A stretch of DNA of 64,000 nucleotides from Odontesthes bonariensis (taxonomy: Eukaryota > Chordata > Actinopteri > Atheriniformes > Atherinopsidae), in NCBI RefSeq assembly GCF_027942865.1, contig NC_134510.1:15776743-15840742 (forward strand). Direction: 5' to 3'. Numbering within the stretch: position 1 is the first letter of the stretch; the number at the start of each line of letters is the position of its first letter. Made by a program: the position numbers and the translations under genes. Below are positions 12,110 through 48,616 of this stretch, piece after piece. The notes below the pieces were generated by a model. The model searched no databases. It was not told the origin of the DNA and worked only from the letters and a program-made list of their open reading frames with translations.

Positions 12110-13089
12110 TTTCAATGGAACTATTTGAAGATGTTTATTTGGTCTATTTGTCAAATTATATTATAAATGCATGAGCCAATTTTAAGCTCAAGACTTGAAA
12201 TTCACAAATCATACTTAGTCTTTACACTATATGGGGAAAACGAACCTTGTGGAAAAGGTGGCGTGGCTCAGGTGTGATGAGGTTTCATTGACAACAAAAT
12301 AAGACTGCTTGACTCAGTTTAAACAAGAAAGACAAAGTTTTTTAATGTGGTTTTTCAGAAAGAACAGTGGCAGCGCCAGCACTGCCTGTCATGCACAGAT
12401 TTACACACAAACACACACGCAGTCAAACCTAACAGATATATTGCAAATGAAAATTGACTTTGCTTTCCTGCTTCAGTTTTAGTAGAGAAAAATATCTAAA
12501 TATTTAGATAATAGAAAACATGAAAAAGATCTAAAATAATAACTTGACTTTTTCTCCAAATAGGAGTAGTACTGAGTACTCCAAACAGGCATGTAGGTGT
12601 GTCATTTACAAAAGCAGAGGTGACGTTAACGGTTGAGGTCCCTTCCTCTATAAACAGCAAACATCACAGATAACAACAGCAAGTTGTTTGTAGTGCAACT
12701 CAGAGGGTTTTTTATTTTCAACCTGCTTTTATTTCCTGCTGTAGTTTTCAAATGGAGTTAGCATCAAAACCAAACCTCTTGTAGGAGATCAAATAGGCTG
12801 ATTTGATCCCTATGATGTTACAGTGTCTTTACTATAAAAGAATGGCTTTAACATGAGAACAAAGGCACACTTAAACATAGATGTACAACGTATACTTAAC
12901 AGAAATATTGTAAACACACACCAAAAGAAGAAATATATTGAAAAATATCGCTCTTCAACATTATATAAAATTAAATAAAAAGTGTTTAGTTTCTGAATGT
13001 GCTTACAGTGGCTGCAGACTTTTCATCCAACACATTGGGTGAACTTTGAGTCATAATGCTCTCCATAATCAAAGCAGGGCACGGACGGC

Positions 13090-13266
13090 TTAAAGCTTGA
13101 TATGCCAGCTACTTTCTGGGCTTAGCATGGAGGTGCTGATAAATAGGCAGTAGTTCAACATAAAGCAGGAACCTGATTTACAGGATTCATGCAGCCACTT
13201 GTCTCTACCAGATACAGTTCGGCCAAGCAGAAAGACCAGTGTGAGAACTAGTCCGATAGACCTCAT
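13090..13266 (-). CDS. possible small secreted peptide, left copy
   Basis: A 58-codon open frame begins with a convincing signal-peptide-like stretch, MRSIGLVLTLVFLLGRTVSG, with predicted cleavage near VSG/RD. A short cysteine-bearing tail follows. It sits about 130 bp beyond the polyadenylation signal of the TLDc gene and on the same strand. It could be an extended 3' UTR, a small gene or chance. The right arm has the same frame with one substitution (Met for Leu). Because the arms are nearly identical overall, that is weak evidence of selection. Not recognised as a known family. Confidence 0.25.
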   Translation of the reverse strand: MRSIGLVLTLVFLLGRTVSGRDKWLHESCKSGSCFMLNYCLFISTSMLSPESSWHIKL

Positions 13267-13392
13267 GCTGCACGTTGGCTACGGGAGCCGATTGCAGAGA
13301 TGATGGCAAACGCTCCCTCAGGATAAAGCAGGAGCTAAGCCAAACGTCTTCCTCGAAGTCTTGAAGTTTTCCAGACAGGACAGCTTAGTTTT

Positions 13393-13398
13393 TTTATT
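13393..13398 (-). terminator. polyadenylation signal of left TLDc gene
   Basis: AATAAA on the minus strand, 18 bases after the stop codon at 13418-13416. The same hexamer is in the right arm. Confidence 0.6.
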
Positions 13399-13415
13399 AT
13401 TTCAAATGTTCCCAT

Positions 13416-16393
13416 TCAGTTCTGCACAGTCCAGACTTCAATGTCTTCAATAATAAAGTCTTCATGTGTGGACAGAGGTGCATTTTGAAAGGTAGGGCAG
13501 GAAAAGCTTGAACCACGGTACAGATCAGCATCCAGCCACAGAGCGAAGCCACCCCTAACAAAAAGTAAAACATTGCAATTTATAATATAATATAGAAAAA
13601 GTTGTTATCTCTAAACTCAGATAAATCCCAGAATACTATTTACAGTCATTTATGGTCTTATTATTATTACTTTATGACAAATTACATTTTTCTATGTTTC
13701 TATGTTTTACAGAAAAGATCAGTGAGCACATAACTTACCGTCCTCCACCAATCTGCAGAGATTCTAAGTTGCCGCTCACAAAGTATGAGTTCTCCCCACT
13801 CCACCTGTATTGCTGCAGAAAATTCAAAGATAAAACATAAGAAACTAATATTCAAGCATTGTGGACAACTTGCTCTCAAACCCGATGATGGATACAGTCT
13901 AATAACCATAGTGTAGGTAACAAAAATGATTCCACTCTTACCTGGAAGTCAGGGTTGAAGCTGAACAGGAAGGTCTCCCCGGTACCATAGCAGTATTTAC
14001 TGACTCTGAATGGATCAGACGAAAAAGCCCCAAACACCTGAAAATAAATACACAGCATTTTGTTAATCAAGATTTCAGTTTGACGGCACTTGTACTGAAA
14101 AGTCTTTGGGATTTTGGGAACCAAGATGCAAACCTTTTTGTGCATGTCTTTGATGACCAGCAGCACAGGGCTGTCCAGATCAGCCATATTTCTGTAGAGA
14201 GTCTTCAGGCTGCTCCCATGGATGGCTGTGCTGTAGACCAGATGCCACGGATAACCTTGGGTCCTTGGTGGCATGTGAGCAGCGAGCTATTGGAAAAGAA
14301 GTTGTTGATTAAATGATGTCCTTGGAGATCTGATGATGCCCTCTCAAGCTTATATAACTCGTATAACTTACTCTCTGCAGGTGGCCGTCATCTAACAGCT
14401 GGCTCTGGCTGCTCAGCTCAGGGAGAGCATCATCAACCTCCTGATACTCTTGCTCCTCCGGCTCAGAGTCTTCTGAACTGCAGAGACTGAGGCGACGCTT
14501 GGAGTCCTTCACTGTGATAATCTGCAACAGAGAACAAGATGAAACAAGTTGGTGAGAAAACAAATATGATTTAACTTTTTTTTTCTCATATAGTTCCATT
14601 CTTGCTTTTCAGAATGTTCCTCTCCTTTAGGATCATGTGGATTTACAGACAGTGCTCATATAGCTCCAGATTTATATTTAGATTTGATAGTAAGATGCTA
14701 TTTTAACCCAGTCCCACAAGCAAACTGACAGTTATGTTGCTGGATTATAAGCAGGAAGCATCTATGAATGGATCGTGACAAACAATTTTACAATCAAAGA
14801 ACAGCAAATTTTGCTTTACAAATGGGAACCTTCTGGTAAATTATCAGCATCTATAGCAATCTCACCTCAACATAGGGCTCCACACAGTTGCTGGCAAAAT
14901 AAAGCACCTTAATATTTTCTGACATGAACTTCATAGCTCCTGATTTCTCTGTCAAGTTCTGCACTCTGCTGTACCACATGTCTGCTCTCTAAAGGCAGCC
15001 TCTCACTTATATACGCTATGGGTTTTTTTCACTTTCATTGGTTGGAAGCTTGAACGGATGTCGGCTCATTGGTTAGCTCTGTTTCTTTCTTCCGTTACAG
15101 GAAAGTGAAACTTGGTTCTGGCACACAGAGGGGAGCAGAAAAAGGATGTCCATATATAGGCAGTGGGATTTCCCATAATCTCAGGGATAACTGCCAGCAT
15201 CTCTGCTTCCGTGATTGCTGTAAGTGAGCAGTGACTGCCTCTTCTCAAAAAAGTGTTTAAACAGCAGAGAGCTCACACACTTGAACACAAAAACCATACA
15301 AGGATTTTTGTCCTATATTAGGTAATTTATTTGTGTTTGAGCAAAACTAACCTCCCAGTCTTTAGCTGTTTTGGGGTTGTTCACAGATTTGCTGAGGAGC
15401 TTGTTGATCACAGCCATGTCTTTGTCTACAACCAGATAACTGTTCTGATGTTTCTCTCTGATGAGGTAGCGCGACTGGCTGCACTTGTTGTTGCCTTTAG
15501 TGTAGATATCTGGTGACCATTGCACAAAGAAGGTGTAGAGGTGTTCAGCCCTGTATGGACAGAGGGAAAATGTACATGTTATTACTAATAAATAAGCATC
15601 ATATATTCTATTTTTGTTGGTAAAGTTGGGGTGATTATTCATGTGTTCTGCCTTAGCTTAACTCAATAGCATTTTAATATAAAAGCAAAACACTTTAAAA
15701 CTGCAGAAAAATGATGACATAAAAAGATCATTGATTACGTCATAAAACCATTCAAGTAGAACTTATTTTCATTTTTCATGGGATTGAAAAAAACAACTGA
15801 CAGTTGAACAAATCTCCTCTAAAACATATTCAGATATGTCGGGGCATGAATAACTAGAAAGGGAAACATACTTTCAATGTATTTAGCATTAGTCATGCAG
15901 TACTGTCGCCATCCATGAACAAAGGTGAGAATTAGAAACTCCTCTTTAGAGTCTTTCATGTTCCAGTGCAGGTTTTAGGCTTTTCCATAAGAAACAGCTC
16001 TCTGTTAATTAAGTGCTGTTATCAAATTCCTCTTTTTCTCCTTCCCCTCGTCTCTCTCTCTATATCTGTCACATTAGCATGAGCTCAAACTCTCTGGCCT
16101 CCACAGCTCCATTGCAACATTTTGTCCGTGATAAGACAGAAACAACTGCCTTTCCTTCCTTTGCACACATGACAGAATGACAGCACCCAATACTTCTGCA
16201 TTTAAAATCCTGTCCAAGTTAGTGGAAAATGATCCTGTATGCACAAATTGTTTGCTTGGATTAAGTGAAGCATGCAGATCAAATTGCTGCTTAAACTTCA
16301 GAGAACAGCACAATGTTTAGGAAACAGCATCATATTGTTCACAGCTTTGTCAAAAACTTGTTCTTACTCTCCAACACTGTAGACAACTCCCAT
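13416..16393 (-). CDS. ncoa7: NCOA7-like TLDc-domain protein, left copy
   Basis: Coding exons on minus: long form 16393-16368, 15550-15352, then shared 14521-14372, 14286-14134, 14037-13942, 13812-13739 and 13554-13416 (278 aa). The short form replaces the first two exons with 14934-14866 (226 aa). All junctions are GT/AG and in phase. Exons 4-7 form a complete TLDc domain, with GYPWHLVYST, SLKTLYR, SPVLLVIKD, YGTGETFLF, RWSGENSYF, LWLDADLY and the IEDIEVW end. Exon 3 has IITVKDSKRR and an acidic linker; exon 2 has the YTFFVQWSPD block that precedes TLDc in full-length NCOA7. The LysM and GRAM parts of full NCOA7 are absent. Family knowledge: TLDc proteins bind the V-ATPase, and short NCOA7 is interferon-induced and restricts endosomal virus entry. 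Protein identical to the right copy; two synonymous changes seen (14174 region Ala codon; Ser codon 13788-13786). Confidence 0.92.
15000..15115 (-). promoter_or_regulatory. internal ISRE/CCAAT/TATA promoter, left copy
   Basis: Read on the minus strand, upstream to downstream: a full interferon-stimulated response element AGTTTCACTTTCC at 15112-15100, two CCAAT boxes (about 15072 and 15041), a second ISRE half-pair GAAAGTGAAA at 15036-15027, and TATATAA at 15013-15007. The short-form ATG is about 75 bp downstream at 14934. An in-frame upstream ATG (14979) lies too close to the expected start site to be favoured. Confidence 0.85.
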
Positions 16394-16504
16394 GACTGGC
16401 TGAAGATGAAGGCGTTGATGGTGAACTGTGAAGATGAAACACAAGTTGACAGCTTCAAGGCTCAGTGCTGAAGAAACATTTCCACTCTGAGTCTGCCATC
16501 CCTG

Positions 16505-16560
16505 CGTTTTTATAGGAGCGGATCAATTGCTGAGATAAGCCCCTTTGACCATTGACCCTC
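16505..16560 (-). promoter_or_regulatory. outer TATA promoter, left copy
   Basis: TATAAAA at 16514-16508 lies about 120 bp before the long-form ATG (16393). A direct repeat GGGTCA-A-TGGTCA (DR1-like nuclear-receptor or HNF4-type site) is at 16558-16546. No ISRE was seen here, so the two promoters probably respond to different signals. Confidence 0.5.
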
Positions 16561-16869
16561 CTTTTCTCAGTTTAAAGCTCCACACTGCACTGCGCATATT
16601 CTCGCAAAGATTTCACAACGGCGTTTGAAAGCCAAAGCTGGTGATATATTAACTTGACCTCTTCGGGGTCCCTGTCCTAAAGTTGGACAGGAGTTCAGCA
16701 GTTACTGTGTCACAGTGAGATTCGGTGGCAGAAAAAAGGTGACTGAACAGAAAGATAAAGGCCCGGATTTATGTCAGTCAGGTTAACTATCTGTGTGTGC
16801 CTTGCTGCCTCTTTGGATGTCTCGTCCATTTTATCATCTCATGAGTAGTGTGGAGTATAGAGGTTTACA

Positions 16870-17690
16870 AGGTCTAGCACTTACCCTGTACTTCACTACT
16901 CCTTCTACTGCACTTTATCTTTCTGTACTTTCCTCTATGCCTGCACTTTATCTCCACACTGTCACCCCTGACAGAGTCTGACTAGTGGTAGCTTCTATGT
17001 AGCTTATTGCTAGCTTTGATGTTAGCTGGAATGTTATATCCTCATTTGCAAGTGGCTTTGGATAAAAGCGTCTGCTAAATGCATAAACATAAACATAAAT
17101 GATACTTGATTGGAGTATTGTATTTTGCAACAGCAACTTAAAATCCAGTGATAAATACTGCACTTCTTAGCTCCCTTGATGACCTTAAACTTATTGATTT
17201 AAAAAAATCAGTCTTGGGCATTTAAAATACTTTTTTTTTTAACATAATGGATGTTAATGTAAATGCATAGAGAGAGTAGGACAAAGTAGTTGGTGCTGCT
17301 TGCGTGAAATTTATTCATGTAAAATGCCTAAATATGACATTGAAAGGGACCTTTCCGACTAATGATTCTGTGCAGTTTTGATACTGATACTAGGCGTCAT
17401 GCTGTGGATCATGCATACAGCATGACGCCTAAGTTAAGTCCTGATTGTACAAAAAAGATGTAACGTGTTAACTGATCATTTTTAGAAGTTGAGAATTTTC
17501 ACTTTTCTCTGTGACGACACCTTTAAGTTTTTTTAAGCTTTTTCTCTTAAGTCTGCCTTGAACATTGTAAACAATCTCACAACAGCTTGTTTTCCTAACT
17601 TAAAAGTAAAAGAAAGTTTATCACAGCAGGACGACGCATGCTTAATGGACTGATTATGGTGTCTGGTAAATGTATTCTAAGAGCAAGACT
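16870..17690. mobile_element. left-arm-specific inserted sequence with fish repeat
   Basis: This block has no counterpart in the right arm, which carries an unrelated shorter stretch at about 42,300-42,505. It includes the phrase ggataaaagcgtctgctaaa (17062-17081), the well-known 3' end of several fish retroposons, and a 15-bp perfect hairpin at 17391-17431. It is probably more than one insertion event. Confidence 0.6.
17391..17431. repeat. 15-bp perfect hairpin
   Basis: TAGGCGTCATGCTGT (17391-17405) is matched by its exact reverse complement at 17417-17431, with an 11-base loop. Confidence 0.8.
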
Positions 17691-20600
17691 ATCTGGTTAC
17701 GCGACATCAATAATTTTTGGGTTGATCATTCTTTGGCAGATCAAAATCATTGCATTTGCCCTTTTGAGAACACACAACGACCCAAACTAACTCAGTGATC
17801 TACCTGCCTGCATCTTTTGAGACGTTATTTGAACAGTCTCTATCCTGTCAGTATTACTGTAATCTCAAGCTTGATATCATGATTTAATCAGAACAGTAAA
17901 CCTTGATTACAGTGTTGTTTACAGTTGTAAAGAATCAATGTTCAATATTAGCCATTCAGACTTGATCAGTTTCCAGTGTTGGCTGTTATCGCCACTGTAA
18001 TACTCAAACACATTCACAGTGATGTTTGAGTTTTTCTAATTGTGCTCAACAAGTCAGAGTACCGACAAATAAACAGATTTAGCATTACAATAGCTTCAAA
18101 TGATCTGAGCACACACTGATCTGTTTAATCAGTTATCCTATCTGTGAGAGTTTGGATCTTTCTACCACCTTCTTTCCTTCCACAGATAATAATTTTGAGT
18201 CCTTTTGAATGAATCAATAAAAAACTGTAAAGTACAGATAATGTGTTAGAGCCACAGTGCCAGGGCTGTATTCAGACTTATGATAATGGTACCAGTGCAC
18301 AAGCACACTGTTGTGGATCTTCCTATATCAGGCCAGTGGTCAACAATAAAAACGATCTGGGGTCAACAATCAGGCTTAATGTTCTTACTCAAGAGAAAGA
18401 GGACGGAGAGGATCAATTTGAGACAGTGTCTATTCCGTCATAGAGACGCGATCAATAGATACACACACTAACAACCACATATGCAAATTTACAGATTATA
18501 CAGATGTAAATTCATGCAAACATAAGCAGACGTGAGCGCTCTCATATATGCACAAACATGTGAGTCCAAACGTGCACATGAGCATGTTTATTATTATTTT
18601 TTGTACTCACTAGGCTCATATTATGACTGCTGATGACATGTTATGATGTTTACAGTTCTGTCCAGCTGCTCAGACAATCTTTTAGCAGTAGCTTGAGTTT
18701 GTCCAGTTCATTGTATTAGTGGGAAGAATGCAGACTTCCCCTGAAAATACACATTACTTTTAGAGAAAGTCACTTTCATTCTTGTGAGAATGAACAGCTC
18801 ATATACTCTATCCAATTTTCCCCTTGAACTCAGCGATCGTGACTTTGAGAACAAACATTTATGCAAATATAATAAGTCCAGGATTTGGACGCTTAATATA
18901 ATAAAATCACTAAAATACAGTATTGATGATAGTTTTTAAAACATAGCAGGTGATAGAGGAATTTACCAAAAATAGTTGGGAATAGTTGGTTCGTCATAGC
19001 AATACACTTCTTGTTTGCTGCCAAAAGAACCAGTTTCTTCAGCTTTCATATACGAAAGCTAGAATATAATGAGTCATGCGGTCTTTCCAGTGAAATTCTT
19101 GCACTGTAATTGAAAACAGATGCTCTGCAGCCGTACGAGCACAGCGGGCCTTCGTCATTTCCTTGGCATTGGGGTAGAGAGACGCTTGTGTTTTAGCTCT
19201 CCTCCAATTCCAGTAAACCCTCTCTGCCCCTCGCATGCTCGCTGTGGCAAACGCTGGGAATACTTCTGTCGATGTTTTATTTTTGTTTGTTTTATTTTTA
19301 ATCGATCTGCAAAAGTTTCAAACAAATTTGTTTCACTTTGTCTTTATAGGGTATTGTGTGTAGAATTTTGGATTAAAAGATGAATTTAATCGATTTGGGA
19401 ATAAGGCTGTAACATATTGTGGAAAAAGTGGAGCGCTGTGAATACTTTCACTGTATGAGAAAGGTCATTGTGGGGCAGCCTGTCTCTCCCACACACACAC
19501 GCACAAGACAAAAACCCTCTAAAGGGTGAAATATTTTACTTTTTTCACTCTTGTGATCTCTTGTATATTTTTGGACTGGTTGATAAATCTAAATATTGAT
19601 GTCATATTGATGACATTTTTTCTCTGATGGTGAGATAAGATCAATGATGACTGAAGACAAAAATAGTCCGAGCTCTTGAGTTTTACACTGTGGGGGGGGG
19701 TCACTTGAACTTGTCGAGCTGTGCTTTGAACAGCCCTCATTAGTTTTTCCACTGTACATCACAATAAGTTAAAGAAATTGACATCAATGGCTGCTGAAGC
19801 ATCTCTATTGTAATAAGCAAAATACATTCCTGCTTCCCTCTTCGTAATGAAAGCACCCCACCAGTTCATTGGTTCAAAGCATTAGGTGTGAAGCTGCAAC
19901 AGAAAGGAAAAGTTGGGTCAACATGACCCACAACAACATAAAAAGCCCAGCTCTGATTCAGCTGAAAGGGTTGAAAAAACATTAAAAACAGATTGTAATG
20001 AATGTGCAAATTGGTACACAAAGATTGAACTCCAAGCCCAAAGCTTTCAGGTAGAAGCTATGAAGGGGTTGAGAAAGACATTTTAGCACATTTTAGAGGC
20101 AAAGAACACGAGAGAAGACACCTGTTGTACCAAATTCAAATCCAAACCCTTTTCATGTATAAGCACTGCCACAAGTTAAGTTGTAACCCAAACTACTCAT
20201 GATAAACTTCATGTGAAGGCACCACTTTAGAATGGATTGAATGCAGTGGACCTGCTACAGAGCAGAAGCAGCAGCTTGGCGCAGCTCTTCCCTGCTCAGA
20301 GGCTTGAGACTAAAACTATGTCATCACATATAAGCGCTAATAGAAAAACTGAAGACACTATTTTTTACTCTTTATAATCTTTTGAAAAAAGCTGTTTATT
20401 GTAATGTAGGACAAAATACATTCAATGAAAAAAATGTTGTATAATGCAATGGAATTCCAGTTTGTGTTTTTTAAAATTGAATACTCACATAATTTAAAAT
20501 CATTGATTGAGGAATTATGTCATGTCAGTATCTCATTCTGAAATATATTATCATGGGGCTTTGCCGTTAAGGAACCTTTTTCCAAACCGAGTACAATTTT

Positions 20601-20800
20601 ATTGTAATGAATAAACCCTTTTCACACCAGAGGTTGTCAGACAAATGACACAAAAAACTGACATTTTCAGTTCCAGTTTTAATCAATAAAAATAAAATGA
20701 AACAATGACAGATAAAATAACAGGAACAAAAAAGTTGCAGAGAAACAACAAGTCAGCACCTACATTTATCACACCTTACAATCTGTGAAGATTAGAATCA
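17691..20800. other. left-arm non-coding DNA
   Basis: No supported gene. At about 19,240-19,450 there is a Tc1-like 3' remnant (listed separately). A poly-G run is at 19692-19700. Short open frames here are mirrored in the right arm and look incidental. Confidence 0.5.
19260..19460. mobile_element. Tc1-like terminal remnant shared by both arms
   Basis: The minus strand carries the phrase 'acacacaataccctataaag' followed by 'acaaagtgaaacaaa', and 'gaatactttcac' at the edge. This is the terminal region of a widespread fish Tc1-like element. The same remnant is at 40,490-40,700 in the right arm, so it was present before the duplication. Confidence 0.6.
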
Positions 20801-20807
20801 GGGTGCC

Positions 20808-20974
20808 CTCTTTCTCCTGGCAGCGCACCCCAAGGAGCGCATGGCCAAGGTCACCTGTCTCCCCTGTCTGTTTTCCATGTTTGTCTGTCCGGATGGGTGT
20901 ACTGGACCTGTAATTTCGTTATGCTGTAAGGTGTAATGACAATAAATTCATCATTCATTCATTCATTCATTGCA
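20808..20974 (+). mobile_element. LINE/SINE 3' tail, left-arm-specific
   Basis: The block ends with 'gtgtactggacctgtaattt', 'aatgacaataaa' and an ATTC/CATT tetranucleotide tail (20948-20970). That is the ending of a fish retroposon 3' UTR. The right arm lacks it at the corresponding site (about 39,145), which accounts for the 158-bp offset. Confidence 0.65.
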
Positions 20975-23900
20975 TGCCATTCGATCATATTTAAGAAGTG
21001 ACAGGTTGAACCTGTCTTATTTGAACACATTGACCTCGAGGGTCTGATGCACTTGTTGTCACTGAAGTGTGTGGTCTTTTGGGCTTTCAGCTAAAAGGTT
21101 GTGAATGCTTATGACTGAGGCAAAGAACCTAAATATATTTCAAATGAGAAGAAAATCATCACCATTATATGTCCCTCGCATGGTACAAATGTCAAACAAA
21201 TGCCAGTTTGTGCAGCTGTGGCGGTTCCATCAAATTCAGCCGAGCAGAGTGTTTTACAGAAAAAGAAGCCTGTTTCAGGATTTCACAGGATCTGCAGTAA
21301 AACTTTTGTAGCTTCTGGTGTCAAAGGGCATGTGTCTATCTAATCAAATAGATTGCACAAATTTGACATGCGTGAGGAGGCCCGGGTGGAAAAATCCATT
21401 GCTCTCCAAACAGATTATTGGAGCACAACTACAGTCTGCAAATAAGTATATCAGCAACAACCAGGCCTTTGAGAGCCAAATACTCTGATCAGATAAATGG
21501 AAGACAAAAGTTTGGCAAAGACTAAAGAAAACTTCTCAAGAGAAGAACTTCAGACCAAATGGGAGTTGCTGTGCTGCCTGCAGTTTCATGTCATTGATTA
21601 AGTAAATAATTCTGCATCATAGAGTGCTTAAAAAACCATGAGAGCACATATCTGTAAAAGTTATGATTTTCAACTATAGGTGGACCTTTCAGCAGGATAA
21701 TGATGCTTAGAATATGGACATATCTGCAAATGGATTACTCAAAAAACAATATATATGGGGTGATAGAGTGGACTGGTTGGTACTGTTAAAAGCAAAGGCG
21801 CAATGGAGAGAAATATTTACAAGTTGGTCCCAGTATAGCCTGTTCATTCTGAACTGTTTTACAGCGCACATATCAAATCCAAATAACTTTACAATGCTTG
21901 AGAATGGCCTCAACTTGAAGTGCACATTACTCATTGCTTGCTATCAAGATAACTGTATTAACCAACAACAGTCTATATGAAAAGGACAAATACAGAGGAT
22001 TTAAACTTTTGAATTCTTCATTACAAAAGGAAACTTTTCCTAAAATGTGTACGATATCAGCCTCAGCAGAGCAACATCAGGTCACATGAATAGTTTTAAA
22101 AGTCCGATTATATATCTTATTACATAAAAATTATATTGATATATAAATTTAAAATATATATTAATAATGGTCATAATAAAGCACAATTTATGGGATTAGC
22201 CTCAAGCCTCAACCATTAATTGAATTTTGCTGGGACTTTGATTTTCAGCTATCCAAAGGTCCATCTGGGATTGCTGCTGAAAGTCCCAACATGTGAACGC
22301 TGGAGATGTTCTCCTCCCACACAAACAGTTGTGTGTCTTTGTGAGTCGCAGGGAATCTTCTGCTTATATTATTTTCCATTTATTAGTGTGAATGCATCAA
22401 GTCCAACTGATTGTGTAAGCATACACAGATGCAAGTCACCGCATCCATATCTAAATGATAGCACAAAAGGACTAAAGATTTCACACACAGGTTACAGGTG
22501 AAAGTGTGTCAGCATGGGTGTCCTGCTGTTTGAATTTATCCAGTGCACCTGTTTTGGATTAATTCATTCTTTCCCCAATGAAATATTGGTGATTTATGAG
22601 TAATCCATAGTGCTTCAATAAAAAGAATCCTCATTATAAGTAAAAAATGTTGATTTCCAAATATTTTTTCTCCTTTTAAGACTATAAAGAGGTTTTAAAG
22701 TCCTCCTTAAGAGTGACAATTCATATAACTTACAGATCTAAATATAAACAAATTATGTGCAAATGAGTGCTTCAGTTGTTTCTTCACCGTGTTTGGTCCA
22801 AAGCCCTTCCCTTTCTGTTTGTGCAGTTAAAGAGTTTTTCCCACTGGCTTGCTGGAAGATTGTGCACAGGCAGATTAATCCCACTGCTGCAGCAAATGTC
22901 AGAGTCCAAAAGCTGGTTTGTGCTGGATCAATCACTGCTGGTCTGGCAGTTAAGGACCAGAAACTGCAATATATCAATACAAGTAGATCTTTTGCATCCA
23001 GTACATTCTATAGCTGGGGATTGTAAACCCACATAATATTTTTTGTGACATCAGTATTCTCTCCATGTCTTGCTGTCAATTTCTCCTCTTTTGCCAAGTT
23101 GCAGCAGTTTATCCTCCCGTCCTCTCCTCGGGATAGACTGCCAATGCAGCACCTTTAACAAACTAAAATGATCGACTTTAAAAGCCATTTAGTGACACAT
23201 TGATGTAATGAGTGTACAACAGTAAAAGACACTTTTAGACGTCATGACAGCATAAGAGCTCAGTCAGGGTTAATCAGTGATGTCCCAGAGAGAGTAAGCT
23301 TTTTGTTGACCCACATATTGAACCGCACACATTTCTGTGCAAAGAGTTTAAAAAAAATCCTGAGAGTGATCTTTCAAACAGGGTGACAAGAAACCGAAAT
23401 GTGGCTTCCTCTGCCACTGGGGCTCCGCAACAAAGGAAACTCTCATGAGTGTAAGATAAAAGGAGAGTTTGTTATGTGCGTCATTTCTTTTTATTCAGCT
23501 CTTTAAAAAAGTCCTTCCATTGAATTCAACTGAAACTTGTTGCAGTCAATATAATTGAGAAAAAAAGTGACCCACAGCAGATGTCACTTCGTTTAGCTCA
23601 AAGTGAATGTTGTCTACACAAAGTCTTTAAGGCAAATCATCTACTTATATATATGCTTATGATCAATAATATAGTTTCTTTTTAATGAACTAAAATCACC
23701 CAGAAGCTCCTTAATAACTTTTGCATTTTGTCACCTTTGGTCTTGCAGCCACATGCCAGTTTGTTGGTCCATCCTCCACTTTGTTCCTGACTCTCAACCA
23801 AAGAATGATTTTTTATTAAATTCAGCCACAGTTTAAAGAGTTAGTGGATAAATAAACTGCAGACATGTCCGAAAAAGAAATGAATTTCCTGCTAGTGTGA

Positions 23901-25610: not shown

Positions 25611-25629
25611 TGTACACTGAAATCACGGA

Positions 25630-25815
25630 GGTTTTCCAGCCACGTTACATTAGGAGGAGGCCAAGGGGCACACCCAGGACTCACTGGAGGGATTATATAT
25701 CCCTTCTGGCCTGGGAACACCTCGGGATCACCCAGGAGGAGCTGGAGAGTGGATATCTGGGTTTCTCTCCTGGACCTATTGCCTTCACGACCTGATCTCG
25801 GATAAACTGATGAAA
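25630..25815 (+). mobile_element. LINE fragment, left-arm-specific
   Basis: The plus-strand frame reads RRRPRGTPRTHWRDYISLLA, then WEHLGITQEELE. This is the C-terminal end of the same LINE family as at 7,825-8,502. The right arm runs straight through this point (about 33,690), so the fragment arrived after duplication. Confidence 0.8.
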
Positions 25816-31071: not shown

Positions 31072-31076
31072 ACACA

Positions 31077-31131: not shown

Positions 31132-31133
<2 letters not shown>

Positions 31134-36474: not shown

Positions 36475-36730
36475 CCATAGTATCTCATAATTACGAGATA
36501 AGATCTCGTAATTACGAGATAAGATCTCATAATTACGAGATAAGATCTCAAAATTACGAGATAGAACTAAGATACTAAGATATCTTAGTATCTTAGTTCG
36601 ACTAGTGTCGAACTAAAATTCATTTTCCATAGTTTGGGGGAATTTTTATAAGGAATTATATTCAATAACTATTACAGTGTAGTATCATAAACCTCAGGTC
36701 AACCACTCCCATTACCTCCTTGGTACTACA
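36475..36730. mobile_element. right-arm-specific palindrome-rich insertion
   Basis: The left arm lacks about 258 bp here (site near 23,417). The insert starts with an array of ATCTCGTAATTACGAGAT-type palindromes (36,478-36,563). A perfect 36-bp palindrome follows at 36,564-36,599, then a 10-bp-stem hairpin at 36,593-36,616. No coding capacity. Confidence 0.8.
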
Positions 36731-39700
36731 ACAATGTGGCAGAGGAAGCCACATTTCGGTTTCTTGTCACCCTGTTTGAAAGATCACTCTCACGAATCTT
36801 TTTAAACTCTGTGCACAGAAATGTGTGCTGTTCAATATGTGGGTCAACAAAAAGCTTACTCTCTCTGGGACATCACTGATTAACCCTGACTGAGCTCTTA
36901 TGCTGTCATGATGTCTAAAAGTGTCTTTTACTGTTGTACACTCATTACATCAATGTGTCACTAAATGGCTTTTAAAGTCGATCATTTTAGTTTGTTAAAG
37001 GTGCTGCATTGGCAGTCTATCCCGAGGAGAGGACGGGAGGATAAACTGCTGCAACTTGGCAAAAGAGGAGAAATTGACAGCAAGACATGGAGAGAATACT
37101 GATGTCACAAAAAATATTATGTGGGTTTACAATCCCCAGCTATAGAATGTACTGGATGCAAAAGATCTACTTGTATTGATATATTGCAGTTTCTGGTCCT
37201 TAACTGCCAGACCAGCAGTGATTGATCCAGCACAAACCAGCTTTTGGACTCTGACATTTGCTGCAGCAGTGGGATTAATCTGCCTGTGCACAATCTTCCA
37301 GCAAGCCAGTGGGAAAAACTCTTTAACTGCACAAACAGAAAGGGAAGGGCTTTGGACCAAACACGGTGAAGAAACAACTGAAGCACTCATTTGCACATAA
37401 TTTGTTTATATTTAGATCTGTAAGTTATATGAATTGTCACTCTTAAGGAGGACTTTAAAACCTCTTTATAGTCTTAAAAGGAGAAAAAATATTTGGAAAT
37501 CAACATTTTTTACTTATAATGAGGATTCTTCTTATTGAAGCACTATGGATTACTCATAAATCACCAATATTTCATTGGGGAAAGAATTAATCAATCCAAA
37601 ACAGGTGCACTGGATAAATTCAAACAGCAGGACACCCATGCTGACACACTTTCACCTGTAACCTGTGTGTGAAATCTTCAGTCCTTTTGTGTTATCATTT
37701 AGATATGAATGCGGTGACTTGCATCTGTGTATGCTTACACAATCAGTTGGACTTGATGCATTCACACTAATAAATGGAAAATAATATAAGCAGAAGATTC
37801 CCTGCGACTCACAAAGACACACAACTGTTTGTGTGGGAGGAGAACATCTCCAGCGTTCACATGTTGGGACTTTCAGCAGCAATCCCAGATGGACCTTTGG
37901 ATAGCTGAAAATCAAAGTCCCAGCAAAATTCAATTAATGGTTGAGGCTTGAGGCTAATCCCATAAATTATGTTTTATTATGACCATTATTAATATATATA
38001 TTTAAAATTTATATATCAATATAATTTTTATGTAATAAGATATATAATCGGACTTTTAAAACTATTCATGTGACCTGATGTTGCTCTGCAGAGGCTGATA
38101 TCGTACACATTTTAGGAAAAGTTTACTTTTGTAATGAAGAATTCAAAAGTTTAAATCCTCTGTATTTGTCCTTTTCATATAGACTGTTGTTGGTTAATAC
38201 AGTTATCTTGATAGCAAGCAATGAGTAATGTGCACTTCAAGTTGAGGCCATTCTCAAGCATTGTAAAGTTATTTGGATTTGATATGTGCGCTGTAAAACA
38301 GTCCAGAATGAACAGGCTATACTGGGACCAACTTGTAAATATTTCTCTCCATCGCGCCTTTGCTTTTAACAGTACCAACCAGTCCACTCTATCACCCCAT
38401 ACATATTGTTTTTTGAGTCATCCATTTGCAGATATGTCCATATTCTAAGCATCATTATCCTGCTGAAAGGTCCACCTACAGTTGAAAATCATAACTTTTA
38501 CAGACATGTGCTCTCATGGTTTTTTAAGCACTCTATGATGCAGAATTATTTACTTAATCAATGACATGAAACTGCAGGCAGCACAGCAACTCCCATTTGC
38601 CAAACTTTTGTCTTCCATTTATCTGATCAGAGTATTTGGCTCTCAAAGGCCTGGTTGTTGCTGATATACTTATTTGCAGACTGTAGTTGTGCTCCAATAA
38701 TCTGTTTGGAGAGCAATGGATTTTTCCACCCAGGCCTCCTCACGCATGTCAAATTTGTGCAATCTGTTTGATTAGATAGACAAATGCCCTTTGACACCAG
38801 AAGCTACAAAAGTTTTACTGCAGATCCTGTGAAATCCTGAAACAGGCTTCTTTTTCTGTAAAACACTCTGCTCGGCTGAATTTGATGGAACCGCCACAGC
38901 TGCACAAACTGGCATTTGTTTGACATTTGTACCATGCGAGGGACATATAATGGTGATGATTTTCTTCGCATCGGAAATATATTTAGGTTCTTTACCTCAG
39001 TCATAAGCATTCACAACCTTTTAGCTGAAAGCCCAAAAGACCACACACTTCAGTGACAACAAGTGCATCAGACCCTCGAGGTCAATGTGTTCAAATAAGA
39101 TTCAACCTGTCACTTCTTAAATATGATAGAATGGCATGCAATGGAATCTGGACACCCTGATTCTAATCTTCACAGATTGTAAGGTGTGATAAATGTAGGT
39201 GCTGACTTGTTGTTTCTCTGCAACTTTTTTGTTCCTGTTATTTTATCTGTCATTGTTTCATTTTATTTTTATTGATTAAAACTGGAACTGAAAATGTCCG
39301 TTTTTTGTATCATTTGTCTGACAACCTCTGGTGTGAAAAGGGTTTATTCATTACAATAAAATTGTACTCGGTTTGGAAAAAGGTTCCTTAATGGCAAAGC
39401 CCCATGATAATATATTTCAGAATGAGATACTGACATGACATAATTCCTCAATCAATGATTTGAAATTATGTGAGTATTCAATTTTAAAAAACACAAACTG
39501 GAATTCCATTGCATTAAACAACATTTTTTTCATAGAATGTATTTTGTCCAACATTACAATAAACAGCTTTTTTCAAAAGATTATAAAAAGTAAAAAATAG
39601 TGTCTTCAGTTTTTCTATTAGCGCTTATATATGATGACATAGTTTTAGTCTCAAGCCTCTGAGCAGGGAAGAGCTGCGCCAAGCTGCTGCTTCTGCTCTG

Positions 39701-42700
39701 TAGCAGGTTCACTGCTTTCAATCCATTCTAAAGTGGTGCCTTCACATGAAGTTTATCATGAGTAGTTTGGGTTACAACTTAACTTGTGGCAGTGCTTATA
39801 CATGAAAAGGGTTTGGATTTGAATTTGGTACAACAGGTGTCTTCTCTCGTGTTCTTTGCCTCTAAAATGTGCTAAAATGTCTTTCTCAACCCCTTCATAG
39901 CTTCTACCTGAAAGCTTTGGGCTTGGAGTTCAATCTTTGTGTACCAATTTGCACATTCATAACAGTCTGTTTTTCATGTTTTTTCAACCCTTTCAGCTGA
40001 ATCAGAGCTGGGATTTTTATGTTGTCGTGGGTCATGTTGACCCAACTTTTCCTTCTGTTGCAGCTTCACACCTAATGCTTTGAACCAATGAACTGGTGGG
40101 GTGCTTTCATTACGAAGAGGGAAGCAGGAATGTATTTTGCTTAATTCAATAGAGATGCTTCAGCAGCCATTGATGTCAATTTCTTTAACTTATTGTGATG
40201 TACAGTGGAAAAACTAATGAGGGCTGTTCAAAGCACAGCTCGACAAGTTCAAGTGACCCCCCCCCCCAGTGTAAAACTCAAGAGCTCGTACTATTTTTGT
40301 CTTCAGTCATCACTGATCTTATCTCACCATTAGAGAAAAAATGTCATCAATATGACATCAATATTTAGATTTATCTACCAGTCCAAAAAAATACAAGAGA
40401 TCACAAGAGTGACAAAAGTAAAATATTTCACCCTTTAGAGGGTTTTTGTCTTGTGCGTGTGTGTGTGGGAGAGACAGGCTGCCCCACAATGACCTTTCTC
40501 ATACAGTGAAAGTATTCACAGCGCTCCACTTTTTCCACAATATGTTACAGCCTTATTCCCAAATCGATTAAATTCATCTTTTAATCCAAAATTCTACACA
40601 CAATACCCTATAAAGACAAAGTGAAACAAATTTGTTTGAAACTTTTGCAGATCGATTAAAAATAAAACAAACAAAAATAAAACATCGACAGAAGTATTCC
40701 CAGCGTTTGCCACAGCGAGCATGCGAGGGGCAGAGAGGGTTTACTGGAATTGGAGGAGAGCTAAAACACAAGCGTCTCTCTACCCCAATGCCAAGGAAAT
40801 GACGAAGGCCCGCAGTGCTCGTACGGCTGCAGAGCATCTGTTTTCAATTACAGTGCAAGAATTTCACTGGAAAGACCGCATGACTCATTATATTCTAGCT
40901 TTCGTATATGAAAGCTGAAGAAACTGGTTCTTTTGGCAGCAAACAAGAAGTGTATTGCTATGACGAACCAACTATTCCCAAGGATTTTTGGTAAATTCCT
41001 CTATCACCTGCTATGTTTTAAAAACTATCATCAATACTGTATTTTAGTGATTTTATTATATTAAGCGTCCAAATCCTGGACTTATTATATTTGCATAAAT
41101 GTTTGTTCTCAAAGTCACAATCGCTGAGTTCAAGGGGAAAAATGGATAGAGTAAATGAGCTGTTCATTCTCACAAGAATGAAAGTGACTTTCTCTAAAAG
41201 TAATGTGTATTTTCAGGGGAAGTCTGCATTCTTCCCACTAATACAATGAACTGGACAAACTCAAGCTACTGCTCAAAGATTGTCTGAGCAGCTGGACAGA
41301 ACTGTAAACATCATAACATGTCATCAGCAGTCATAATATGAGCCTAGTGAGTACAAAAAATAATAATAAACATGCTCATGTGCACGTTTGGACTCACATG
41401 TTTGTGCATATATGAGAGCGCTCACGTCTGCTTATGTTTGCATGAATTTACATCTGTATAATCTGTAAATTTGCATATATGTGTGTTAGTGTGTGTATCC
41501 ATTGATCGCGTCTCTATGACGGAATAGACACTGTCTCAAATTGATTCTCTCCGTCCTCTTTCTCTTGAGTAAGAACATTAAGCCTGATTGTTGACCCCAG
41601 ATCGTTTTTATTGTTGACCACTGGCCTGATATAGGAAGATCCACAACAGTGTGCTTGTGCACTGGTACCATTATCATAAGTCTGAATACAGCCCTGGCAC
41701 TGTGGCTCTAACACATTATCTGTACCTTACAGTTTTTTATTGATTCATTCAAAAGGACTCAAAATTATTATCTGTGGAAGGAAAGAAGGTGGAGAAAGAT
41801 CGAAACTCTCAGAGATAGGATAACTGATTCAACAGATCAGTGTGCTCAGATCATTTGAAGCTATTGTAATGCTAAATCTGTTTATTTGTCGGTACTCTGA
41901 CGGTCGGTACTCTGACTTGTTGAGCACAATTAGAAAAACTCAAACATCACTGTGAATGTGTTTGAGTATTACAGTGGTGATAACAGCCAACACTGGAAAC
42001 TGATCAAGTCTGAATGGCTAATATTGAACATTGATTCTTTACAACTGTAAACAACACTGTAATCAAGGTTTACTGTTCTGATTAAATCATGATATCAAGC
42101 TTGAGATTACAGTAATACTGACAGGATAGAGACTGTTCAAATAACGTCTCAAAAGATGCAGGATGGTAGATCACTGAGTTAGTTTGGGTCGTTGTGTGTT
42201 CTCGTGGAGTGTAACCAGACAGATTTTTTTCTTAGAATTTATTTACCACACACCACAATCAGTCCATTAAGCATGCATTGTCCTACTGTGATAGACACTC
42301 TTTTACTTTTAAACTGTTATTTTATATGGCTGAATGAAAACCTGAGAGAAACATACAAGATGTAGAAATATTTTTCTATTTCATCTATTTCTATTCCTTT
42401 GTATGGATCTTTTAGAATTTTTTTTCTTTTAATTTTCCACTGAATTTTAAGTAAAGTCACAAAATACAGTTTTCCAGTCAATACCCATTTGACCCTCATT
42501 AAGTGCAAACCTCTATACTCCACACTACTCATGAGATGATAAAATGGACGCGACATCCAAAGAGGCAGCAAGGCACACACAGATAGTTAACCTGACTGAC
42601 ATAAATCCGGGCCTTTATCTTTCTGTTCAGTCACCTTTTTTCTGCCACCGAATCTCACTGTGACACAGTAACTGCTGAACTCCTGTCCAACTTTAGGACA

Positions 42701-42780
42701 GGGACCCCGAAGAGGTCAAGTTAATATATCACCAGCTTTGGCTTTCAAACGCCGTTGTGAAATCTTTGCGAGAATATGCG
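36731..42780. other. right-arm non-coding DNA
   Basis: Mirrors 16,600-23,400. The shared Tc1-like remnant lies at about 40,490-40,700 and a poly-C run at 40,258-40,266. A short right-specific segment is at 42,300-42,505. No gene recognised. Confidence 0.5.
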
Positions 42781-42814
42781 CAGTGCAGTGTGGAGCTTTA
42801 AACTGAGAAAAGGA

Positions 42815-42865
42815 GGGTCAATGGTCAAAGGGGCTTATCTCAGCAATTGATCCGCTCCTATAAAA
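42815..42865 (+). promoter_or_regulatory. outer TATA promoter, right copy
   Basis: TATAAAA at 42859-42865 and a DR1-like GGGTCA-A-TGGTCA at 42815-42827, upstream of the long-form ATG at 42980. The left copy has the same elements. Confidence 0.5.
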
Positions 42866-42979
42866 ACGCAGGGATGGCAGACTCAGAGTGGAAATGTTTC
42901 TTCAGCACTGAGCCTTGAAGCTGTCAACTTGTGTTTCATCTTCACAGTTCACCATCAACGCCTTCATCTTCAGCCAGTC

Positions 42980-45959
42980 ATGGGAGTTGTCTACAGTGTT
43001 GGAGAGTAAGAACAAGTTTTTGACAAAGCTGTGAACAATATGATGCTGTTTCCTAAACATTGTGCTGTTCTCTGAAGTTTAAGCAGCAATTTGATCTGCA
43101 TGCTTCACTTAATCCAAGCAAACAATTTGTGCATACAGGATCATTTTCCACTAACTTGGACAGGATTTTAAATGCAGAAGTATTGGGTGCTGTCATTCTG
43201 TCATGTGTGCAAAGGAAGGAAAGGCAGTTGTTTCTGTCTTATCACGGACAAAATGTTGCAATGGAGCTGTGGAGGCCAGAGAGTTTGAGCTCATGCTAAT
43301 GTGACAGATATAGAGAGAGAGACGAGGGGAAGGAGAAAAAGAGGAATTTGATAACAGCACTTAATTAACAGAGAGCTGTTTCTTATGGAAAAGCCTAAAA
43401 CCTGCACTGGAACATGAAAGACTCTAAAGAGGAGTTTCTAATTCTCACCTTTGTTCATGGATGGCGACAGTACTGCATGACTAATGCTAAATACATTGAA
43501 AGTATGTTTCCCTTTCTAGTTATTCATGCCCCGACATATCTGAATATGTTTTAGAGGAGATTTGTTCAACTGTCAGTTGTTTTTTTCAATCCCATGAAAA
43601 ATGAAAATAAGTTCTACTTGAATGGTTTTATGACGTAATCAATGAACTTTTTATGTCATCATTTTTCTGCAGTTTTAAAGTGTTTTGCTTTTATATTAAA
43701 ATGCTATTGAGTTAAGCTGAGGCACAACACATGAATAATCACCCCAACTTTACCAACAAAAATAGAATATATGATGCTTATTTATTAGTAATAACATGTA
43801 CATTTTCCCTCTGTCCATACAGGGCTGAACACCTCTACACCTTCTTTGTGCAATGGTCACCAGATATCTACACTAAAGGCAACAACAAGTGCAGCCAGTC
43901 GCGCTACCTCATCAGAGAGAAACATCAGAACAGTTATCTGGTTGTAGACAAAGACATGGCTGTGATCAACAAGCTCCTCAGCAAATCTGTGAACAACCCC
44001 AAAACAGCTAAAGACTGGGAGGTTAGTTTTGCTCAAACACAAATAAATTACCTAATATAGGACAAAAATCCTTGTATGGTTTTTGTGTTCAAGTGTGTGA
44101 GCTCTCTGCTGTTTAAACACTTTTTTGAGAAGAGGCAGTCACTGCTCACTTACAGCAATCACGGAAGCAGAGATGCTGGCAGTTATCCCTGAGATTATGG
44201 GAAATCCCACTGCCTATATATGGACATCCTTTTTCTGCTCCCCTCTGTGTGCCAGAACCAAGTTTCACTTTCCTGTAACGGAAGAAAGAAACAGAGCTAA
44301 CCAATGAGCCGACATCCGTTCAAGCTTCCAACCAATGAAAGTGAAAAAAACCCATAGCGTATATAAGTGAGAGGCTGCCTTTAGAGAGCAGACATGTGGT
44401 ACAGCAGAGTGCAGAACTTTACAGAGAAATCAGGAGCTATGAAGTTCATGTCAGAAAATATTAAGGTGCTTTATTTTGCCAGCAACTGTGTGGAGCCCTA
44501 TGTTGAGGTGAGATTGCTATAGATGCTGATAATTTACCAGAAGGTTCCCATTTGTAAAGCAAAATTTGCTGTTCTTTGATTGTAAAATTGTTTGTCACGA
44601 TTCATTCATAGATGCTTCCTGCTTATAATCCAGCAACATAACTGTCAGTTTGCTTGTGGGACTGGGTTAAAATAGCATCTTACTATCAAATCTAAATATA
44701 AATCTGGAGCTATATGAGCACTGTCTGTAAATCCACATGATCCTAAAGGAGAGGAACATTCTTAAAAGCAAGAATGGAACTATATGAGAAAAAAAAAAGT
44801 TAAATCATATTTGTTTTCTCACCAACCTTTTTGCATCTTGTTCTCTGTTGCAGATTATCACAGTGAAGGACTCCAAGCGTCGCCTCAGTCTCTGCAGTTC
44901 AGAAGACTCTGAGCCGGAGGAGCAAGAGTATCAGGAGGTTGATGATGCTCTCCCTGAGCTGAGCAGCCAGAGCCAGCTGTTAGATGACGGCCACCTGCAG
45001 AGAGTAAGTTATACGAGTTATATAAGCTTGAGAGGGCATCATCAGATCTCCAAGGACATCATTTAATCAACAACTTATTTTCCAATAGCTCGCTGCTCAC
45101 ATGCCACCAAGGACCCAAGGTTATCCGTGGCATCTGGTCTACAGCACAGCTATCCATGGGAGCAGCCTGAAGACTCTCTACAGAAATATGGCTGATCTGG
45201 ACAGCCCTGTGCTGCTGGTCATCAAAGACATGCACAAAAAGGTTTGCATCTTGGTTCCTAAAATCCCAAAGACTTTTCAGTACAAGTGCCGTCAAACTGA
45301 AATCTTGATTAACAAACTGCTGTGTATTTATTTTCAGGTGTTTGGGGCTTTTTCGTCTGATCCATTCAGAGTCAGTAAATACTGCTATGGTACCGGGGAG
45401 ACCTTCCTGTTCAGCTTCAACCCTGACTTCCAGGTAAGAGTGGAATCATTTTTGTTACCTACACTATGGCTATTAGACTGAATCCATCATCAGGTCTGAG
45501 AGCAAGTTGTCCACAATACTTGAATATTAGTTTCTTATGTTTTATCTTTGAATTTTCTGCAGCAATACAGGTGGAGTGGGGAGAACTCGTACTTTGTGAG
45601 CGGCAACTTAGAATCTCTGCAGATTGGTGGAGGACGGTAAGTTATGTGCTCACTGATCTTTTCTGTAAAACATAGAAACATAGAAAAATGTAATTTGTCA
45701 TAAAGTAATAATAATAAGACCATAAATGACTGTAAATAGTATTCTGGGATTTATCTAAGTTTAGAGATAACAACTTTTTCTATATTATATTATAAATTGC
45801 AATGTTTTACTTTTTGTTAGGGGTGGCTTCGCTCTGTGGCTGGATGCTGATCTGTACCGTGGTTCAAGCTTTTCCTGCCCTACCTTTCAAAATGCACCTC
45901 TGTCCACACATGAAGACTTTATTATTGAAGACATTGAAGTCTGGACTGTGCAGAACTGA
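42980..45959 (+). CDS. ncoa7: NCOA7-like TLDc-domain protein, right copy
   Basis: Long form (278 aa): 42980-43005, 43823-44021, 44854-45003, 45089-45241, 45338-45433, 45563-45636, 45821-45959. Short form (226 aa): exon 44439-44507 joined to the last five. Both first-exon choices enter exon 3 in phase 0, so the switch leaves the TLDc domain intact. Short-form residues 1-23 are MKFMSENIKVLYFASN-type, residues 24-73 the IITVKDSKRR block with an acidic linker, and about 74-226 the full TLDc domain. The human interferon-induced NCOA7 isoform has the same plan and similar length (about 219 aa). Expected role: V-ATPase binding at endosomes or lysosomes and antiviral restriction (family knowledge; not shown for this gene). 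Neighbours hint3 and trmt11 support NCOA7 orthology at the locus. The LysM-containing upstream exons of full NCOA7 were not found. Confidence 0.93.
44261..44366 (+). promoter_or_regulatory. internal ISRE/CCAAT/TATA promoter, right copy
   Basis: A consensus ISRE AGTTTCACTTTCC at 44261-44273, CCAAT at 44301-44305 and 44332-44336, a second GAAAGTGAAA at 44337-44346, and TATATAA at 44360-44366. The short-form ATG is at 44439. This compact order is what one expects of a type I interferon-stimulated gene promoter. Confidence 0.88.
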
Positions 45960-45976
45960 ATGGGAACATTTGAAAT

Positions 45977-45982
45977 AATAAA
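45977..45982 (+). terminator. polyadenylation signal of right TLDc gene
   Basis: AATAAA 18 bases after the TGA at 45957-45959. Confidence 0.6.
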
Positions 45983-46108
45983 AAAACTAAGCTGTCCTGT
46001 CTGGAAAACTTCAAGACTTCGAGGAAGACGTTTGGCTTAGCTCCTGCTTTATCCTGAGGGAGCGTTTGCCATCATCTCTGCAATCGGCTCCCGTAGCCAA
46101 CGTGCAGC

Positions 46109-46285
46109 ATGAGGTCTATCGGACTAGTTCTCACACTGGTCTTTCTGCTTGGCCGAACTGTATCTGGTAGAGACAAGTGGCTGCATGAATCCTGTAAATC
46201 AGGTTCCTGCTTTTTGTTGAACTACTGCCTATTTATCAGCACCTCCATGCTAAGCCCAGAAAGTAGCTGGCATATCAAGCTTTAA
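46109..46285 (+). CDS. possible small secreted peptide, right copy
   Basis: A 58-codon frame starting with the signal-like MRSIGLVLTLVFLLGRTVSG, mirrored at 13266-13090 with one substitution. It lies downstream of the TLDc gene's polyadenylation signal on the same strand. It has no known family, no obvious own promoter, and could be chance. Confidence 0.25.
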   Translation: MRSIGLVLTLVFLLGRTVSGRDKWLHESCKSGSCFLLNYCLFISTSMLSPESSWHIKL

Positions 46286-47563
46286 GCCGTCCGTGCCCTG
46301 CTTTGATTATGGAGAGCATTATGACTCAAAGTTCACCCAATGTGTTGGATGAAAAGTCTGCAGCCACTGTAAGCACATTCAGAAACTAAACACTTTTTAT
46401 TTAATTTTATTTAATGTTGAAGAGCGATATTTTTCAATATATTTCTTCTTTTGGTGTGTGTTTAGAATATTTCTGTTAACTATATGTTGAACATCTATGT
46501 TTAAGTGTGCCTTTGTTCTCATGTTAAAGCCATTCTTTTATAGTAAAGACACTGTAACATCATAGGGATCAAATCAGCCTATTTGATCTTCTACAAGAGG
46601 TTTGGTTTTGATGCTAACTGATGTTTGCTGTTTACAGAGGAAGGGACCTCAACCGTTAACCGTCACCTCTGCTTTTGTAAATGACACACCTACATGCTGG
46701 AGTACTTTGAGAATTTTAAAACTTTTTCGTATTTTCTATTATCTAAATATTCAGATATTTTTCATCACAAAAACTGAAGCAGGAAAGCAAAGTCAACCTC
46801 CTTGTATGTCAGTTAGGTTTGCTTATGTGTGTTTGTGTGTGTATCTTAGGCTGACGGGCAGTGCTGGCGCTGCCACTGTTCAACCTGTGAAACTGCATTA
46901 AAAAACTTTCCTGTTAAAACCGAGTAAAGCAGTCTTATTTTGTCATCAATGAAACCGCACCACACCTGAACCACATCACCTTTGCTACATGGTTTGTTCT
47001 CCCGACAGACATAAGAAGTTAACAGGAGAGTGTAAATCCAAAGTGAGATTTGAATCATTTAAAACTGGCTCAAGAATTTGTGATATAGTATGACAGGCGG
47101 ACAAAACAAACACCTTGAAAAATTGCTTTTGAAAGCACTCATGAAACACTGTCGGAACAAATTAGCAGTCCCACAGACGATAGGAAAGAAAGTATCTAAC
47201 CAGGGAGCTGTTTTCAGTGCCACAATCTTCCAGACCATCATACATGGAAATGATGTTTAAAGCTCTGAACCCTGTCTACACCAATAAACAACAAGGCAAT
47301 AGAAACCAGAAGAAATCCTCAGCTGGCATTTTATTTCAAATGTGGTGTATATTTGGGATTATTTCAGTGACGTTTGCATATGTTGAAAACAGAAGCTTCT
47401 TGTTAAAATTGGAAGCATAAGGCACTTATGGACAGAAGTATGACTTAAAATCTGTTATGAATCGTGTGATTCATCTCAAATTCCTAGTTTAATTTCCAGC
47501 AAAAACAAAACTGTACTTGTATAATTTTGTTTTACTTATTACGACATTATTTGTCTCTTACAG

Positions 47564-48613: not shown

Positions 48614-48616
<3 letters not shown>

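Follow-up and report, generated by a model that had tools for sequence, protein, structure and literature searches.

A 64,000-nucleotide stretch of contig C6 (15776743-15840742) in the genome assembly of the fish Odontesthes bonariensis, hereafter the window, holds two long inverted arms, which raises the question of how the arms came to be so alike and what genes they carry. The reading we favour, with a probability of roughly 0.78, is an old inverted duplication whose core would later have been homogenised by arm-to-arm gene conversion, leaving two intact genes that face outward. Positions given without a contig name are those of the window; the genome searched comprised 945 Mb in 187 contigs.

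Anatomy of the palindrome

An earlier note on this DNA had described inverted arms at 12.1-26.8 and 32.5-47.1 kb, and self-BLAST of the window confirmed them: 12110-26827 mirrors 47134-32476 in eight colinear inverted blocks of at least 200 bp and a ninth, shorter block (17600-17700, about 100 bp, 85% identity). Five of the inverted blocks have an E-value of 0, which excludes chance. The eight blocks (left arm / right arm, identity) are:

12110-12666 / 47134-46619, 73.9%
12756-16869 / 46619-42504, 99.3%
17766-20808 / 42203-39150, 97.9%
20968-23417 / 39143-36736, 96.9%
23420-25301 / 36476-34592, 97.2%
25332-25623 / 33962-33679, 81.6%
25825-26026 / 33684-33483, 91.6%
26176-26827 / 33126-32476, 98.6%

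From the outside inward and out again, the parts of the palindrome are:

11778-11978, plus strand: diverged outward continuation, mirror of 47209-47397, in two pieces (70% and 80% identity)
12110-12666, plus strand: left outer margin; identity is 74% over its whole length, with substitutions declining from about 30% on the outer side to nearly none on the inner
12756-26827, plus strand: left arm, putatively homogenised core, interrupted by two islands (17600-17700, 25332-26044) and by inserts that the right arm lacks
20809-20967, no strand: dispersed repeat insertion of about 160 bp in the left arm only, up to 98% identical to copies elsewhere
25332-26044, plus strand: diverged island in the left arm, mirror of 33474-33962, with a left-only repeat-like insert at about 25624-25824
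27496-28693, no strand: dispersed repeat, about 1.2 kb long, within the spacer's left half
29267-29949, no strand: dispersed repeat of 680 bp, with a MADF-domain frame at 29543-29860 (minus strand)
30081-30524, plus strand: innermost diverged mirror segments, left (30081-30264 and 30463-30524)
30525-31147, no strand: remaining loop of 623 bp, with an (AC)31 microsatellite at 31070-31131
31148-31424, minus strand: innermost diverged mirror segments, right (31148-31209 and 31245-31424)
32476-46619, minus strand: right arm, putatively homogenised core, probably in the ancestral position
46619-47134, minus strand: right outer margin, mirror of 12110-12666

The mirror extends beyond the arms in both directions. 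Outward, sensitive settings recovered 11929-11978/47258-47209 (80%) and 11778-11881/47397-47289 (70%), and a possible outermost pair at 9897-9960/49600-49537 (77%), near the first HINT3 match described below; this last pair is absent from the genome-search matches listed (40 of 1,591 candidates scored). Inward, the arms continue as 30081-30264/31424-31245 (72%) and 30463-30524/31209-31148 (84%), pairs for which the genome holds no other copies (5 of 5 candidates scored). We controlled these matches with 60 dinucleotide shuffles per region and a same-strand comparison: the outer-end matches score 350, 49, 46 and 38 bits, against 32.8 for the best shuffle and 29.2 on the same strand, and the two spacer matches 93 and 68 bits, against 30.1 and 24.7. 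A third spacer match, of 56 bits, is a dispersed repeat. The central pair 28853-28910/31532-31589 was rejected as mirror evidence, being a dispersed repeat found elsewhere in the genome.

Since the mirror reaches 30524 and 31148, colinear but diverged (72-84%), no more than 623 bp are left as a loop. The earlier note's 5.6-kb spacer is thus partly incorrect, its inner part being diverged mirror. Part of its present length is due to the dispersed repeats of 1.2 and 0.68 kb. The larger has copies on several contigs at 89-94% identity (40 of 6,116 candidates scored), and the smaller, of which other contigs have many copies at 97-98% identity, is probably a young insertion of a recently active transposon family. 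Self-complementary tandem units of about 21 bp, of the ATCTCGTAATTATGAGAT type, occur in the spacer at 27343-27462 and at 36477-36564 in an insert found only in the right arm.

The gene-bearing piece 13000-16000 matches three places in the genome: its own position, the mirror copy (99%) and, on contig C29, an exon of 117 bp (78%; 3 of 3 candidates scored). For the inner arm, 17766-26827, the mirror is the sole match apart from small dispersed repeats (among 40 of 1,275 candidates scored), and for the outer margin, 12110-12666, it is likewise the sole genome match, with the best score after self (40 of 1,591 candidates scored). No matches came from scans for Rfam families or tRNAs. A Pfam scan of 90 frames (86 of the 140 frames of at least 50 amino acids in 12110-33000, and four from the right arm) returned 11 families at E 0.1, with only TLD (1e-19) and the MADF domain of the spacer repeat (5.5e-8) below 0.001; these frames give no support for protein-coding content in the inner arms at 17.8-26.8 kb.

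At thresholds of at least 300 bp and E 1e-5, a 144-kb region that takes in the window, together with 80 kb of C29, contains only two other inverted repeats, a 645-bp pair at 78% and a 0.9-kb hairpin. A 0.9-kb hairpin lies in the right flank outside the window (C6:15871529-15872451); it is 97% self-complementary and perhaps a foldback element. In the left flank, 1069-1281 (minus strand) weakly resembles a DDE transposase (Pfam DDE_3, E 0.00089, below the family cut-off), and a 224-codon frame at 7811-8482 (plus strand) looks like the end of a LINE reverse transcriptase; this frame has no Pfam match, and part of it recurs at 28021-28269. Both look like transposon remnants.

Divergence between the arms

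The arms align over 13,692 ungapped sites with 409 substitutions, which are very unevenly placed. The putatively converted core (12756-16869, 17766-25301 and 26176-26827) differs at 137 of 12,079 sites, whereas the ends, centre and islands on the same mirror diagonal, which would be of the same age, differ at 272 of 1,613 (1.1% vs 16.9%); the latter figure includes the 58 sites and 11 differences of the dispersed-repeat pair at 28853-28910/31532-31589. The locus therefore combines two long inverted arms of high identity with a tract more alike than the sequence outside it. Counted per 200 sites, the substitutions have a dispersion of 21.4, against 0.96 when permuted, a value reached in none of 2,000 permutations.

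The outer end fades gradually, as the earlier note had claimed. Substitutions per 40 sites from 12110 to 12643 number 13, 8, 13, 8, 5, 9, 6, 6, 7, 3, 3 and 0, a gradient over about 450 bp; beyond 12643 there is one substitution in 23 sites, and the count is low again past 12756. We had considered an abrupt boundary at 12667-12755, where the arms differ by 89 bp in length, but the 40-site counts do not bear it out. A graded margin of 450 bp is expected from conversion tracts with varying ends.

Within the arms, identity also drops to 82-89% at 17600-17700 and 25332-26044. In the second island, 25332-25623 has 42 differences (15%) and 25825-26044 has 16 (8%), 12 of them in its first 80 sites, between flanking blocks diverged by 1.3% and 1.2%; its right-arm counterpart, 33474-33962, has no genome match other than itself and the left arm (20 of 20 candidates scored). 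Both islands adjoin length differences between the arms, where the alignment is less sure. The insert at about 25624-25824, present only in the left arm, is flanked by what appears by eye to be a short direct repeat, and the right arm carries a 259-bp insert of its own at 36477-36735. In the core alone, differences are mildly clustered (dispersion 1.48, reached in 15 of 2,000 permutations); given such mild clustering, and islands beside length differences, individual or separate recent tracts lie below what can be resolved.

Conversion is suggested by this mosaic, in one genome, in which young-level blocks are bounded and interrupted by ends, a centre and islands at the old level, all along one diagonal. 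A real paralogous duplication kept alike by gene conversion, as the earlier note had proposed, is the best reading; the old-level divergence in the centre and islands, which that note does not mention, supports it more strongly than the outward fade. The nearest competitor is a single young inverted duplication of about 1% divergence that involved no conversion, the weak matches at the ends and centre being unrelated repeats or conserved elements. The core is indeed fairly uniform, at 0.7-1.5% per block, and one weak central match did prove to be a dispersed repeat, but the diverged segments share the mirror diagonal on both sides of the core and within it, and those tested are pairs that lack other genome copies and score above shuffles. 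Islands at 82-89% amid blocks at 97-99%, and a 450-bp graded margin, are not readily left by a single event, and we consider this explanation improbable.

Less probable again is an assembly artefact in which two haplotypes, or a hairpin molecule, were joined tail to tail. Alleles in an outbred fish could reach the 97-99% identity of the arms. Joined haplotypes would, however, repeat the outer flank, and the 52 kb to the left (40 kb and window positions 1-12109) and 57 kb to the right (window positions 47135-64000 and 40 kb) do not match each other at E 1e-5, a threshold below which the short mirror pieces near the arms score; the two sides are thus not versions of one flank. A hairpin would give near-identical arms rather than two classes of divergence 15-fold apart, some insertions occur in the left arm only and others in the right arm only, and the locus lies inside a 42-Mb contig. 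The unrelated flanks and arm-specific inserts thus support the earlier note's preference for a real duplication over an assembly mirror, and an artefact appears unlikely.

Equally improbable is that purifying selection on function, in place of conversion, keeps the arms alike: the gene-bearing block 12756-16869 is the most alike (0.68%, against 1.2-1.5% for the other core blocks and 1.4% for 17766-25301; Fisher p 0.0006 for the latter comparison), but its introns and flanks are as alike as its exons (3 of 726 coding and 25 of 3,388 noncoding sites differ; Fisher p 0.46), so that exon constraint does not explain the identity, and some 9 kb of inner arm with no Pfam domain below E 0.001 are 97-99% alike outside the island.

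A short NCOA7-like gene in each arm

A predicted gene resembling the short, virus-induced form of NCOA7, with TLDc as its only domain, lies in each arm. The relevant features are:

13416-14979, minus strand: NCOA7-AS-like gene, left copy, six predicted exons (14979-14866, 14521-14372, 14286-14134, 14037-13942, 13812-13739, 13554-13416)
15013-15112, minus strand: putative promoter of the left copy, with ISRE GGAAAGTGAAACT at 15100-15112 (plus strand), GAAAGTGAAA near 15036 and TATA box TATATAAG at 15013
15349-15570, minus strand (right copy 43803-44024): residual upstream exon of long-form NCOA7, open and divergent, upstream of the short-form promoter
44261-44367, plus strand: putative promoter of the right copy, with ISRE at 44261-44273, GAAAGTGAAA at 44337 and TATA box at 44360
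44394-45959, plus strand: NCOA7-AS-like gene, right copy, with length and splice sites as in the left copy (exons 44394-44507, 44854-45003, 45089-45241, 45338-45433, 45563-45636, 45821-45959)
49644-50905, plus strand: HINT3 exons downstream of the right copy, found with a human query; two exons also match C29

In both predicted genes all five introns are GT..AG and the frame is intact, with 241 codons and a stop; the copies differ at 3 of 242 codons, by L9F and two synonymous changes. The product contains a TLDc domain (Pfam TLD, E 3.2e-50), and its nearest PDB chain is NCOA7 (NCOA7B, E 9.1e-81), OXR1 being much weaker (1.1e-16). The layout, one unique first exon followed by five C-terminal NCOA7 exons, is that of NCOA7-AS, and residues 22-38 of the first exon align to the N-terminal part of the NCOA7B chain. 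Genome matches to this first exon are confined to the palindrome's arms (22 of 22 candidates scored, although a short, fast-evolving exon could be missed). Because the TATA box lies 34 bases before the first ATG, the protein probably starts at M16, with 226 amino acids of which 23 are unique, rather than at the first ATG with 241; with that start, L9F would fall outside the protein and the two copies would encode identical proteins.

In both copies the ISRE GGAAAGTGAAACT lies about 90 bases before the TATA box, and the putative promoters may thus be interferon-inducible, judging from their motifs. The pattern GGAAANTGAAACT occurs twice in the window, at the two promoters only, and none of 100 shuffles holds two. 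Looser ISRE cores are common, with 22 in the window on both strands, and carry no evidential value. We rejected a shared bidirectional promoter, the two TATA boxes being 29 kb apart.

Genomic setting and the C29 paralogue

With human queries, the right copy is followed by HINT3 on the same strand, ABRA (minus strand; supported by Pfam Costars) and TRMT11 (plus strand). On C29, 14676834-14681971 holds a full-length NCOA7 with LysM, GRAM and TLDc exons, again followed by HINT3 on the same strand; this gene is compact, at about 5 kb. Since HINT3 follows the right copy as it does on C29, the right arm would preserve the ancestral order and the left arm would be the inverted copy. An HDDC2 match was found only on C29, near 17.18 Mb. 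An open frame at 48163-48459 (plus strand) matches C29:14690532-14690777, on the opposite strand, at 36% of amino acids; it has no Pfam or PDB match. This apparently conserved gene lies downstream of the right NCOA7-AS copy and before HINT3.

The C29 gene seems to be without the short-form exon and promoter: the intron expected to hold that promoter measures 160 bp and contains no GAAANNGAAA core. Conversely, no LysM or GRAM exons were found in the window and 40 kb on each side with the same query that found both on C29. The long-form exon at 15349-15570/43803-44024 may be a relic or still be used. With short-form parts apparently absent from C29 and LysM and GRAM exons not found in that stretch of C6, the paralogues may have split the isoforms between them. 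In the simplest reading of this one genome, the isoforms were divided between two paralogues that the fish genome duplication perhaps produced. A fuller version, which we put forward only tentatively, is that after genome duplication C29 retained the long form without the interferon promoter and C6 retained the interferon short form alone, which was then doubled in a palindrome where conversion has long preserved two identical, co-inducible copies of an antiviral gene.

Proposed origin

Under the reading of an old duplication with a homogenised core, a fold-back or template switch that left a short loop may have made the palindrome. The copied unit would have been a truncated NCOA7 gene, the interferon-type short form, together with DNA upstream of it, with the right arm in the ancestral place and the left arm as its inverted copy. 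The original duplication looks old. Recombination repair that paired the inverted copies would then have homogenised 12.8-26.8 and 32.5-46.6 kb by arm-to-arm conversion, whereas both outer ends, the centre and some islands within the arms would have escaped, reaching about 15-27% divergence. The outcome would be a pair of intact genes that face outward, have the same promoter and encode almost the same protein. Together they would be expected to supply twice the dose of a V-ATPase regulator inducible by interferon. Cruciform formation and inversion by recombination at the palindrome are possible.

Relation to known systems

The best-known examples of palindromes kept by conversion are on sex chromosomes and concern fertility genes. 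In livebearing fishes, LWS opsin duplicates are reportedly in inverted arrangement, with gene conversion discussed. Like those opsins, the genes described here are closely linked fish paralogues for which conversion comes into question; the gene family is another one, and here most of a 14-kb arm would be homogenised. Primate Y palindromes, as described in PMC3403216, resemble this locus in their gene-bearing inverted arms, their spacer and an identity held high by conversion, with a divergence of 0.021-0.028% given there for the arms in human and chimpanzee. In contrast to the palindromes of that account, the arms here are far smaller (14 kb), their core identity is 98.9% by substitutions, the gene is of an immune type, and the locus is not known to lie on a sex chromosome.

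According to PMC8648102, human NCOA7-AS has a unique N-terminus of 25 residues and five C-terminal exons of the long form. PMC8329711 places the human short isoform under type 1 interferon through an internal promoter, and reports that human NCOA7 isoforms interact with the V-ATPase and that endolysosomal acidification is increased. The predicted fish genes share with the human form so described the unique short first exon, the five C-terminal exons and the TLDc domain (PMC8329711, PMC8648102). Where human NCOA7-AS has an internal promoter, an ISRE and a TATA box stand here just upstream of the first exon. In these sources human NCOA7-AS is an isoform of one gene, whereas here it would be a stand-alone, mirror-duplicated gene with no LysM or GRAM exon found in the window or the 40 kb to either side.

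Titles and the starts of abstracts in the fish NCOA7, immune-gene and teleost palindrome literature (for one search, the best 15 of 6,557 records) did not contain this arrangement. Conversion-maintained palindromes as such are already known; what is unusual here is the gene, the readable unconverted parts and the apparent split of isoforms. Because the unconverted divergence can be read at the centre, ends and islands, the limits and rates of conversion tracts would become measurable within one locus. A partition of long and short NCOA7 between paralogues, if true, would be a natural separation of two functions, and the palindrome, under the tentative fuller version given above, would be preserving an immune dose on what is possibly an ordinary recombining chromosome.
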